Positions 15,755-38,309 of a stretch of DNA of 42,072 bases are shown here, in pieces. The translations under genes and the position numbers were made by a program. The notes beneath the pieces are model-generated. The model saw only the letters and a list, made by a program, of their open reading frames with translations. It was not told the origin of the DNA and did no database searches. Every line of letters begins with the position of its first letter. The first letter of the stretch is position 1. Source of the DNA: a virus; IMG/VR virus record IMGVR_UViG_3300028399_000012, positions 1 through 42,072 of that record. One strand, given 5' to 3'.

Positions 15755-17026
15755 TTACGAGAAGATGAACAGACCGTGCACAGCCGGCTGGGCGGGTTCA
15801 AGAGCCGCCACTGTCCGGTAGGCATATCGTCTGACACGGATTTCATTGCGGGCCTGGGTGTTGCTCAAAAGATGCGTATCCATATTCTTACGGCCCGAAA
15901 TGAAAGGACGGTACCGCACATAGTTGTGGTCTACAGCGATCATGTAGTCTTTATAGAAGCCTTTGCCACGCAGCGACTTGTCCCAGAAAAGATTCAGCAC
16001 ACCAAACGGTGTCCTGATCTTGGTAACGTTCAAGCCAAAGACAGTGGCTTCGTTCATAACCTGAACATTGGCGCCGGCTATAAACGACCCGGAACCCATC
16101 TTCGAGAAGAACGCCAGCACACTGGAACCGCAAATAGCCAGCTTGGCGTCCGTGCCCAGCGCAAACAGTTGTTCCATGTGATCAACAAACTGGTTGTAAT
16201 CATAGGCATTATACGCCGGAGATACAACGCCTTCACCGTTCATCAGAAGAGAATCGTTGTCTTCGCAGAACGTAACGATTCCATAGGTTGTTCTCACGGT
16301 CTTGGCACCGCTGTTGATGCTCGGAAAGGTTACGGCCTTTTTGCTCAAAGCCGACAGAAGAAGGGCTCTGTTGATGCTGGCTTTGTGCTGCTTCAGGGTA
16401 TTGGCAGCCAGTCTATTCCATTCATCCGGACCAAAGATGCCTTCGGCTTCGGCCACATCGGTCATTTCCCATGCATCCTCGAAGTCTTGGCAGTAGGTTT
16501 GATTGGCCGCCAGAACAGTGTTGACAGCAGGGCTGGCCGCAGAGCCGTCACCAGCGGCAGGGCCAATAACCTGAACACGGTCATTATCCGCAATATTGTT
16601 AGGAGAAGCGCTGACCGCCTCAATATCAATCTGATTCTGGCTGTCAACATTGGTAATCAGAAACAGCGTATCTTTTGCACCGCTCTGGTGAACAACACGG
16701 CACAAAAGACCAGGCCGCAAGAATCCCACGGCATTGCCGCTTCCGTCGTCAACAGCCAAGTTGTTGATCACACCGCTGGACCATGTGCCGGCCCCGGCGG
16801 CATAGAATTGATAATTGATCCAGGGCGGATCATCCGAAAAGTGTTTCGGTTCCATAGAATCCGTCGGCTTACGGGACAGCTTCAAGAGAAACGTAAGCCA
16901 CGGAGTTTCTTGCTTTGCCAGTTCATAAACATCGGCAAAGTCGAGATTGTATTTCCTGCGATCAACCAGGAGCTGCTCAAGCCCCTTGGCGCCTGTCACA
17001 GGAGTGCCACCAGTTACGTAAGCCAT
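15755..17026 (-). CDS. Major capsid protein (HK97-fold type)
   Basis: The ATG at 17026 is chosen because GGAGG lies 8 nt upstream; the longer TTG frame would swallow that site. The 423 residues start with an N-arm (GGTPVTGAKGLEQLLVDRR) and helical region, then a central body (EWNRLAANTLKQHKASINRALLLS) and a C-terminal domain with DYMIAVDHNYVRYRPFISGRK near the end, as in P22/SU10-like capsid proteins. The gene follows scaffold and portal, the standard order. A nearly identical N-arm motif reappears at 22185 (see findings). The fold is inferred from pattern and context. Confidence 0.78.
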   Translation of the reverse strand: MAYVTGGTPVTGAKGLEQLLVDRRKYNLDFADVYELAKQETPWLTFLLKLSRKPTDSMEPKHFSDDPPWINYQFYAAGAGTWSSGVINNLAVDDGSGNAVGFLRPGLLCRVVHQSGAKDTLFLITNVDSQNQIDIEAVSASPNNIADNDRVQVIGPAAGDGSAASPAVNTVLAANQTYCQDFEDAWEMTDVAEAEGIFGPDEWNRLAANTLKQHKASINRALLLSALSKKAVTFPSINSGAKTVRTTYGIVTFCEDNDSLLMNGEGVVSPAYNAYDYNQFVDHMEQLFALGTDAKLAICGSSVLAFFSKMGSGSFIAGANVQVMNEATVFGLNVTKIRTPFGVLNLFWDKSLRGKGFYKDYMIAVDHNYVRYRPFISGRKNMDTHLLSNTQARNEIRVRRYAYRTVAALEPAQPAVHGLFIFS

Positions 17027-17073
17027 TTGAACAACCTCCAACCTTGTTTGTTATCCACCTATACACAAAAACC

Positions 17074-17130
17074 GGTCTCCGTCTCATTCAAGGCTTGAAA
17101 CATGACAGGCGCCTGAACAGAACAGAGACC
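17074..17130 (-). promoter_or_regulatory. Structured leader between scaffold and capsid genes
   Basis: An outer pair GGTCTC (17074-17079) / GAGACC (17125-17130) encloses two perfect palindromes, TTCAAGGCTTGAA and CAGGCGCCTG. On the minus strand it is followed by GGTTTTTGTG. It may act as an attenuator, or stabilise the capsid mRNA leader; no promoter was recognised nearby. Confidence 0.4.
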
Positions 17131-35502: not shown

Positions 35503-36363
35503 ATGAAAACAATGCATCTCTTCTCTGGTGCTGGCGGCGGTCTTTTGACTGATTTAATTCTCGGACACGATCCAGTTGTGGCGGTAGAAATTGATAAATT
35601 TTGCTGTGATGTTCTAAAAAAAAGGAAAGAAGATGGCTGGTTTCCAAATCTGCATGTGTGGGAAGGAAACATCCAAATGTTCGACCCATCCCAATGGCAA
35701 GGAAAAGTGGATTGTATTCATGCAGGGTGGCCTTGCCAGGATATTAGTGTTGCTGGGTCAGGAAAAGGTATTCAAGGAGAAAGAAGTGGATTGTGGAAAG
35801 AAGTTGTCCGCATTGCTGGCATTATTCGACCACAATACTTGTTCTTGGAAAACAGCCCAGCAATCACTTATAGAGGACTCAATGTTGTTATTACGGACCT
35901 TGCCAGGTTGGGGTATGATGCAGTCTGGGCGGTTATACCAGCTTCCGCAGTTGGTGCGCCACACAGACGTGACAGATGGTGGTGTCTTGCAAAAGCGGCC
36001 GACTCCAAATGCGAGGGATTACAAGGGACAACCAAGAAAGGGAACACGCAGCCGTGGTGGGCGCCGTTCATCCTTACTGGCAGCAGTGAGATATTGGCCA
36101 ACGCCGACAGCGTCGATGCATCACGGTTGGCATCCGAACATGAAAAGAGCTTCGACAGACGACCGATTGGATTATACAATAGAGCGGGAGGCATATCAGA
36201 ATTCAACTGGTGGAAGATTGAATCCAACGTGGGTAGAGTGGCTCATGGGGTGGCCAATAGAGTGGACAGAATTAAAGCGTTAGGTAATGGGTGGGTACCT
36301 TTACAAGCTGCTTTGGCGTTTGTATTGCTTTACAAATTGATTAATTCTGCCCACGAAGAATAA
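35503..36363 (+). CDS. C5-cytosine DNA methyltransferase
   Basis: The 286-residue enzyme has the ordered motifs of this family: LFSGAGGG (residues 6-13, SAM), HAGWPCQDIS (73-82, catalytic Cys78), LENSP (115-119), PHRRDRWW (153-160) and, at the C-terminus, VGRVAHGVANRVDRIKALGNG (about 244-264, motif IX-X). It transfers methyl groups to cytosine in DNA, protecting phage DNA or modifying host expression. The target-recognition region is short. No restriction enzyme is adjacent. A second protein-like frame overlaps residues about 107-260 (see next entry). Confidence 0.85.
   Translation: MKTMHLFSGAGGGLLTDLILGHDPVVAVEIDKFCCDVLKKRKEDGWFPNLHVWEGNIQMFDPSQWQGKVDCIHAGWPCQDISVAGSGKGIQGERSGLWKEVVRIAGIIRPQYLFLENSPAITYRGLNVVITDLARLGYDAVWAVIPASAVGAPHRRDRWWCLAKAADSKCEGLQGTTKKGNTQPWWAPFILTGSSEILANADSVDASRLASEHEKSFDRRPIGLYNRAGGISEFNWWKIESNVGRVAHGVANRVDRIKALGNGWVPLQAALAFVLLYKLINSAHEE
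35633..36283 (+). CDS. Overlapping +1-frame protein inside methyltransferase gene
   Basis: A 216-codon frame runs without stop inside the methyltransferase. From codon about 64 it reads CSWKTAQQSLIED, LPGWGMMQSGRLYQLP, PTPNARDYKGQP, YWPTPTA and GGRLNPTWVEWLMGWP, a set of motifs that I recall from phage proteins annotated as methyltransferase-associated. An AGGAAAGAAG site precedes ATG 35633. The first 60 codons look unspecific. Whether it is translated separately, by frameshift, or not at all is open. Confidence 0.45.
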   Translation: MAGFQICMCGKETSKCSTHPNGKEKWIVFMQGGLARILVLLGQEKVFKEKEVDCGKKLSALLALFDHNTCSWKTAQQSLIEDSMLLLRTLPGWGMMQSGRLYQLPQLVRHTDVTDGGVLQKRPTPNARDYKGQPRKGTRSRGGRRSSLLAAVRYWPTPTASMHHGWHPNMKRASTDDRLDYTIEREAYQNSTGGRLNPTWVEWLMGWPIEWTELKR

Positions 36364-36823: not shown

Positions 36824-37897
36824 ATGATTACCAGGCTATATCCTATTCCGACGGGATTTTTGTTTGTCGGCGAATATTCAAAGGGCGAATTAGAGACTCT
36901 ATCTATCGGTGATTACGGAAAACAGAAGAACATAAAAGCTGATTTTCTTGGTTACAGAAAAGAAATTAACGGGGTTGAGAACGGTTGGTGTATGCCTCTT
37001 TCTGAAAAATGGGTTATCACGGTAAGTACACAGTACGGATGCCCGATGAAGTGTAATTTTTGCGATGTGCCTAATGTCAATTTTAAAGGAAATGCCACTT
37101 TCGACGATTTACGCCGGCAGTTTTATAATGCTATTAGTTTATTTCCGAGTGTAAAGTATACAGATCGTTTGAATCTTCACTATGCAAGAATGGGAGAACC
37201 TATATTTAACCGTAATGTCTTTGATTTTAGTATCTGGCTCCGTAAAAACAAAAGACAGATACAAAATGAAACTGGTCTGCGAATTGAAGTGCTTCATCCT
37301 GTTCTTACAACTTCTCTACCGAGAAAGTTTAAAGAGCTGGAAGATCGTATTATAGAATGGTGCGAGATAAAAAACAACTTGTATTGCGGTCAGGCGGGGC
37401 TTCAGTTTTCTATAAATTCAACAGATGAAAAACAGCGTACTGTAATGTTTGGGGATCAGCAGTTGCATCTTGAGGATCTGTCAGAAATCGCAGAGAAAAT
37501 GCCTGAACCTCTGGGAAGGAAATACTGCTTGAACTTCGCCTATTCAACAGATTTCAAAATTGATGCCAGGAGGCTATCCAGTCTTTTCGACCATAATAAG
37601 TTCATGGTAAAGATTACGCCTATTCACAACAACAATGCTTGCAGAGCCAATAACATAAAAACAGAAAAAGGTTATGAGAGTTATCAACCCTACCGGCGTG
37701 TGGAAGAAGATCTCAAAGAAGAGGGTTTTGATGTTATTGTTTTTGTCCCTTCGATAGACGAAGAAAAAGGGCTGGTAACATGCGGTAATGCTGTACTCGG
37801 AGGAAGTACTTTACAAATAGATACATCAATCATCAAAATAAGAGGAATCGACAATGACTCTCTTGGTGTATCCAGGCAGATTCCAACCACCGCATAA
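36824..37897 (+). CDS. Radical SAM enzyme, RlmN/Cfr-like
   Basis: The 357-residue protein has the radical SAM cysteine motif C73-PMK-C77-NF-C80, the SAM-binding MGEPIFN (residues 123-129) and a C-terminal VTCGNAV (Cys320) where RlmN/Cfr proteins carry their methylene-bridge cysteine (ACGQL). The family methylates C2 or C8 of adenine in 23S rRNA or tRNA. The usual N-terminal domain is reduced. GGAGG precedes ATG. The gene overlaps the nucleotidyltransferase gene by 44 bp. The substrate in phage is unknown. Confidence 0.75.
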   Translation: MITRLYPIPTGFLFVGEYSKGELETLSIGDYGKQKNIKADFLGYRKEINGVENGWCMPLSEKWVITVSTQYGCPMKCNFCDVPNVNFKGNATFDDLRRQFYNAISLFPSVKYTDRLNLHYARMGEPIFNRNVFDFSIWLRKNKRQIQNETGLRIEVLHPVLTTSLPRKFKELEDRIIEWCEIKNNLYCGQAGLQFSINSTDEKQRTVMFGDQQLHLEDLSEIAEKMPEPLGRKYCLNFAYSTDFKIDARRLSSLFDHNKFMVKITPIHNNNACRANNIKTEKGYESYQPYRRVEEDLKEEGFDVIVFVPSIDEEKGLVTCGNAVLGGSTLQIDTSIIKIRGIDNDSLGVSRQIPTTA

Positions 37898-38309
37898 AGG
37901 CCATTTTAAAGCTATTAAAACCTGCCTGGAGAAGTTTCCTGACGCAAAGATAATTGTATCCATAGACGTAAGAAAAAAAGACGAAAACAATCCATTTACT
38001 CTTGAGTTTAGAAGGGCTATATTTGAAAAATATTTATCCGATTTCATTGATTGCGGCCGTGTCGTAATTAGCTGTCATCGCTGTAATGAACTATCAGTAA
38101 ACGGATGCTTAACAGCAATTAAAGACTGTTATCCTATTGCCGATGGTATAATCGCAGGAAAAGATAGGGCTCCTTTATTCAGAAACTTCGGCTTTAACGT
38201 TATAGAAATACCAGAAAGATACTATAATTTGTCATCATCCAAAATCAGAGAAAAGATAAAAAACAAGAACAAGATAACTACTGATTTATACCAATCCTTT
38301 TGCTGCTAA
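37854..38309 (+). CDS. NMN adenylyltransferase-like nucleotidyltransferase
   Basis: The 151-residue enzyme has GRFQPPHKGHF (residues 8-18, HxGH) and SSSKIRE (127-133, ISSTxIR-like), the two signatures of the cytidylyltransferase superfamily, and length and layout close to NadM-type NMNAT. It would make NAD from NMN and ATP. It overlaps the radical SAM gene and has its own AGAGGAA site. No nicotinamide phosphoribosyltransferase is adjacent, so the pathway is not complete here. Confidence 0.72.
   Translation: MTLLVYPGRFQPPHKGHFKAIKTCLEKFPDAKIIVSIDVRKKDENNPFTLEFRRAIFEKYLSDFIDCGRVVISCHRCNELSVNGCLTAIKDCYPIADGIIAGKDRAPLFRNFGFNVIEIPERYYNLSSSKIREKIKNKNKITTDLYQSFCC

Follow-up and report, generated by a model that had tools for sequence, protein, structure and literature searches.

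This locus raises the question of why a cytosine methyltransferase gene should hold a second, protein-like reading frame. The stretch of DNA analysed here (the window, 42,072 nucleotides) was identified as phage DNA by its portal, terminase and major head families, all on the minus strand, and is included as one of the contigs in a 2.6 Mb draft genome. The first-pass annotation placed both ORFs correctly, alpha at 35503-36363 and beta, with 216 codons in the +1 frame, at 35633-36283, and the motifs it quoted are present in the sequence. It had offered genuine dual coding, a frameshift product and an inherited overlap across a gene family as possible explanations. In the reading that we favour, with a probability of about 0.83, one C5 methyltransferase is made as two nested polypeptides, of which alpha would carry motifs I-VIII and X, and beta the target-recognition region and motif IX. 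The argument draws on the following features.

35503-36363, plus strand: alpha, large-domain polypeptide of a C5 cytosine methyltransferase, 286 aa, motifs I-VIII and X (PF00145, phrog_363, AlphaFold model, M.HhaI match)
35615-35617, plus strand: TAA that ends the +1 frame shortly upstream of the beta start (sequence; same stop at the same place in L019)
35623-35629, plus strand: Shine-Dalgarno-like AGGAAAG preceding the beta ATG at 35633 (sequence)
35633-36283, plus strand: beta, nested +1 ORF, 216 aa, target-recognition region, motif IX at the C-terminal end (phrog_1008; 233 bits vs 107 +/- 15 when shuffled; +1 ORF in 160/160 and 80/80 related loci)
35651-35689, plus strand: CMCGKETSKCSTH in beta, C-x-C-x6-C-x2-H, putative metal-binding motif (same spacing in the clade of the window)
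35731-35739, plus strand: alpha motif IV, catalytic PCQ (sequence; invariant in alignment A1)
35956-35982, plus strand: alpha motif VIII region, APHRRDRWW (sequence; HxRxR invariant in A1)
36095-36112, plus strand: WPTPTA in beta, repeat-type motif of the variable region (sequence; single-chain actinophage enzymes have the same repeats in their methyltransferase frame)
36218-36268, plus strand: LNPTWVEWLMGWPIEWT in beta, motif IX; the identical bases read VGRVAHGVANRVDR in alpha (hhalign against single-chain enzymes; GTG bias under the tryptophans)
36274-36300, plus strand: alpha motif X, KALGNGWVP (alpha profile match to motif X of single-chain enzymes; confident C-terminal helix, residues 264-285)

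Methyltransferase motifs in the two frames

Alpha has the large domain of the C5 cytosine-specific methyltransferases (PF00145), with motifs I-VIII including PCQ. It matches PF00145 with an E-value of 2.7e-33, over the first half of the profile only (1-168 of 324), and phrog_363 with 2.7e-58, and it matches the structure of M.HhaI with Z 21.5 over 183 residues. In the AlphaFold model of alpha the pLDDT exceeds 80 in the C-terminal helix and at about residues 1-80 and 101-170. Residues 182-251, where the small domain is expected, are predicted to be disordered (pLDDT about 35-55). Motif X (KALGNGWVP) lies in the same polypeptide as the large domain, and motif IX and the small domain are absent from alpha according to the Pfam profile, hhalign and the AlphaFold model. 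Alpha is therefore not a complete single-chain member of the family. The earlier claim that the main frame carries intact motifs IV-X has to be corrected in this respect, as motif X is found in the main frame and motif IX in the +1 frame.

In hhalign, the end of beta, LNPTWVEWLMGWPIEWT, aligns over a short stretch of 21 columns with motif IX of actinophage methyltransferases of the single-chain type (96.5%, E 9.2e-10). In the single-chain enzymes Wachhund gp69, Jabberwocky gp4 and McProf gp6, motifs I-VIII, PTP repeats, EWMM(G/M) and GNGV(V/C)P follow in one frame. The alpha profile matches I-VIII of these enzymes (hhalign E 2.7e-41) and, further on, X; the PTP repeats and motif IX in between are matched by the beta profile. 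The alignments thus establish that motif IX is present in beta and absent from alpha, and that relatives hold the same parts in order in one frame. We interpret beta as very probably the missing piece of the same methyltransferase.

Under the favoured reading, alpha in frame 0 would supply the AdoMet-binding, catalytic large domain (I-VIII) together with motif X, and beta would contribute the variable target-recognition region and motif IX, i.e., the small DNA-reading domain that alpha presumably cannot fold. A single mRNA would serve both polypeptides, each with its own initiation of translation, and the two are predicted to form the active enzyme together. No nuclease was recognised in the ORFs adjoining the methyltransferase in the window, and an orphan phage methyltransferase of this kind would most likely protect the phage DNA from host restriction. 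The methyltransferase also adjoins a Radical SAM-like protein (phrog_24834, E 7e-116), which overlaps a cytidylyltransferase-like gene (PF01467; window 36824-38309).

Selection on both frames

A frame that merely accompanies a conserved gene may stay open and look conserved itself, and chance has to be assessed against a suitable null model. We shuffled synonymous codons within the alpha gene, which keeps the alpha protein and its codon usage. In the window the +1 frame stays open for up to 221 codons, compared with a mean maximum of 78 in shuffled genes (p < 0.002), and the number of +1 stops is 6 vs 11. Over 96 related genes, the +1 frame contains 295 stops where 680 are expected from the alpha protein and codon usage, and the +2 frame shows no depletion (1616 vs 1458 expected). 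Scored against a leave-one-out profile built from the +1 proteins of its relatives, the +1 reading of the window reaches 233 bits, vs 107 +/- 15 for 1000 shuffles, the best of which scored 164; the +2 frame scores -2.5. In 68/68 relatives the real +1 reading scores above every synonymous shuffle.

Part of the +1 likeness among relatives is a by-product of the conserved alpha, as even shuffled genes reach about 107 bits. This beta-like residue is what one would expect if the +1 frame were open and similar only via a conserved alpha whose codons happen to avoid +1 stops, and a junction-preserving codon shuffle, which yields 357 stops and so comes near the 295 observed, points the same way. However, that shuffle is over-conditioned, because an amino acid and the next base nearly fix the +1 stops, and our stop counts do not rest on it. 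Alpha does not account for the full extent of the signal in stop depletion, profile score, rate pattern, start codon or tryptophan codons, and the +2 and flanking-gene controls are without signal. We consider a mere shadow of alpha scarcely credible, and refuted as far as sequence allows.

The same kind of shuffling disposed of another candidate in the window, a 440-aa plus-strand ORF antisense to the major head gene (15776-17098). It remained open in 500/500 synonymous shuffles, and its openness is therefore fully explained by the composition of the head protein.

The rate pattern comes from 37 independent pairs of relatives that are at least 78% identical, with the flanking genes of the same pairs as control. 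This comparison is given more weight than column conservation against the codon shuffle, because the latter ignores common descent and rises in the +2 frame, too. Differences at alpha codon positions 1:2:3 amount to 1336:710:1608, compared to 282:160:685 in the flanking genes. Sites at which a change alters beta and leaves alpha intact evolve far slower than sites silent in both: dSN/dSS is 0.19 for the +1 frame, vs 0.91 for +2 and 0.65 for +1 in the flanking genes, the raw pSN/pSS is 0.33 (bootstrap 0.27-0.41), and dNN is smaller than dNS in 37/37 pairs.

The balance between both frames shifts along the gene. Alpha dominates in the region of motifs I-VIII, and the +1 frame is better kept in the variable region (624 differences at position 1 vs 433 at position 3) and in the IX-X region (133 vs 98). 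This excess of position-1 over position-3 differences is the reverse of an ordinary gene, and position 1 of alpha is the third position of beta. The valine codons of alpha beneath the four beta tryptophans of WVEWLMGWPxxW are GTG in 536/570 cases (94%), compared with 28% elsewhere, and where alpha changes at these codons it mostly does so to ATG, TTG or CTG, all of which keep the tryptophan.

Taken at the level of sequence, these data show that beta is a real, conserved nested gene and that its dual coding is under selection. The suggestion of genuine dual coding is borne out by stop depletion, profile scores, rate pattern, GTG bias and the fixed start described below. Lack of +1 conservation beyond that of the main frame, or stops in close relatives, had been named as evidence that would speak against it; neither was found when we checked.

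A +1 ORF also occurs in another family of C5 methyltransferases, which appear to be complete single-chain enzymes. It measures about 159 aa (2203-2679 inside the methyltransferase at 2049-2999 in L001; same in L002-L009), matches phrog_16143 (E 6.7e-9) and exceeds the length reached in shuffled genes (p at most about 0.01). Most changes between close pairs of this family hit codon position 3, however, which is the pattern of an ordinary gene.

Start site and N-terminal part of beta

In most of the family beta starts four bases after alpha, within (A/G/T)TGAATGAG. The asparagine codon at the beta start is AAT in 121/121 genes that have asparagine there, against a background of 420/1112 (38%). 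The +1 frame reads TGA|ATG at this place in 108/121 genes, and with a TGA directly before its ATG, beta is not an extension from upstream. In some relatives with a kept beta ATG, such as L016 and L048, the codon four bases upstream is not a start codon (TTA, CTA), and alpha must therefore start elsewhere. In the clade of the window the beta ATG is internal, 32 codons before PCQ, and lies at the same aligned position in L019 and L023. The window itself has its own ATG 130 nt inside alpha, preceded by AGGAAAG and an in-frame TAA. These comparisons establish a conserved start for beta.

The start site bears directly on the possibility that a +1 frameshift joins motifs I-VIII of alpha to the +1 variable region and motif IX in one fused enzyme. 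Such fusion has parallels, as the second methyltransferase part lies in the +1 frame in phiBT1, Heather, Polka14, Vagabond and DrYang, and as both parts share a single frame in single-chain enzymes. However, beta has its own conserved start in the family of the window, it is conserved upstream of any sensible shift site, and motif X, which stays in alpha, would be lost by the shift. We regard a frameshift product as very unlikely. It is not needed, either, to explain the overlap as the first-pass annotation had considered: in most relatives the +1 frame opens with a conserved ATG after TGA, and in the window with an ATG that has its own Shine-Dalgarno-like sequence and an upstream TAA.

The split relatives include Heather, Vagabond, DrYang and Polka14, in which the methyltransferase occupies a pair of overlapping ORFs with the second one in +1, and the Streptomyces phages phiBT1 and Heather, in which the second methyltransferase part is in the +1 frame. 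Of the actinophage loci with a methyltransferase split into overlapping ORFs, 4/4 that were read have the second ORF in +1, which is AquI-like (L263 891-1980, L265 42-1983, L266 1014-1959, L017 1365-2418). In Wachhund, the N-terminal half of phrog_1008 matches the +1 frame and its C-terminal half the methyltransferase frame, a pattern that would follow from a frame change joining the pieces.

The nature of the N-terminal part of beta is less clear-cut. Beta as a whole matches phrog_1008 (E 1.3e-28). Its first approximately 150 residues have a match in phrog_1008 only and none in Pfam, NCBIfam or PDB, and the beta profile is without meaningful match among PDB sequences. The model of beta alone is of poor quality (pLDDT 60.7, pTM 0.26). 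These N-terminal residues are overprinted on the catalytic domain of alpha, i.e., on motifs I-VIII, and their column conservation is above the codon-shuffle null. Beta is therefore more than a carrier of motif IX, or has another role. In the clade of the window the stretch at the start of beta keeps the spacing C-x-C-x6-C-x2-H (L019, L020, L022-L024, L100, L106, L179-L181), and this stretch possibly binds metal, to judge from its pattern of residues.

A conserved N-terminal part that matches no known methyltransferase part could mean that beta is a selected protein with a function separate from the methyltransferase, e.g., a second anti-restriction protein, which shares the sequence by overprinting. 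We consider this improbable, because the C-terminal end of beta matches motif IX, exactly the part that alpha is without, and because no beta without overlapping alpha occurs among the best 160 loci of two collection scans. As an extension of the favoured reading of one enzyme in two nested polypeptides, we tentatively suggest, at somewhat less than even odds, that about 290 codons, nearly the whole gene, are coding in two frames across a large phage and prophage family. Beta would then combine the small domain with an overprinted N-terminal domain of further function (metal-binding in the clade of the window), and frame changes in the repeat region may have converted nested, split and single-chain forms into one another in the course of lineage evolution.

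Occurrence and comparison with known systems

The overlap is inherited across a gene family, as had been suspected. Beta is found in the +1 frame in the 80/80 best alpha relatives of the viral collection, and alpha in an overlapping frame at 160/160 beta loci (best 80 viral and best 80 genome), these loci being the best matches of two collection scans and not a census. Genomes with the nested pair include Pseudomonas, Acinetobacter, Halomonas, Sphingomonas, Paenibacillus and many uncultured lineages; within the order of the host no relatives were found in 12 other genomes. Annotation programs usually discard long overlaps between genes on the same strand. The overlap described here persists among related phages and prophages from many groups of bacteria for what would be a readable reason, namely an enzyme divided between two frames. 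A nested beta would explain the truncated look of methyltransferase annotations that cover alpha only, and cloning the gene as a single recoded ORF would abolish beta and, probably, the activity. Research on overlapping genes likewise gains a large natural data set in which the relation between the two proteins is known.

We found no description of the phage overlap in the open-licence literature, and the portions seen of a survey of conserved frame transitions make no mention of it (PMC3711429). Annotations of Paenibacillus larvae phages record the same kind of nested ORF, Lily gp63 as 'g62 internal gene' and Diva gp50 as 'g49 internal gene', and phrog_1008, labelled DNA methyltransferase only, matches the ORFs of both Lily and the window. 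Neither dual-coding analysis nor subunit role was found for these internal genes in the records or in PMC6070908. The single-chain Wachhund gp69, Jabberwocky gp4 and McProf gp6 have the same motifs, but in one frame and one polypeptide.

M.AquI (CYCGRG) is a C5 methyltransferase of two polypeptides, the small subunit of which has motifs IX and X (PMC3404938). The window is predicted from its sequence to resemble it in forming one C5 methyltransferase from two polypeptides, but keeps motif X in alpha and thus falls outside the AquI type. The AquI-like arrangement is that of the split pairs in Heather, Vagabond and DrYang.

M.EcoHK31I, too, has its beta ORF inside alpha and read in a different frame. 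The window shares such a nested small-subunit ORF. The large subunit of M.EcoHK31I (YGGCCR) has motifs I-VIII and X, and the smaller polypeptide only motif IX (PMC3404938); compared by description of motif layout, the motifs of alpha and beta in the window are distributed alike. However, the predicted target-recognition domain of M.EcoHK31I has been placed in the large subunit (PMC3404938), and the target-recognition region of the window is instead dominated by the +1 frame. M.EcoHK31I furthermore belongs to a restriction-modification system, unlike the phage enzyme, for which the adjoining ORFs include no recognised nuclease. With the nested pairs described here, what was a single biochemical oddity in M.EcoHK31I would become a testable family.
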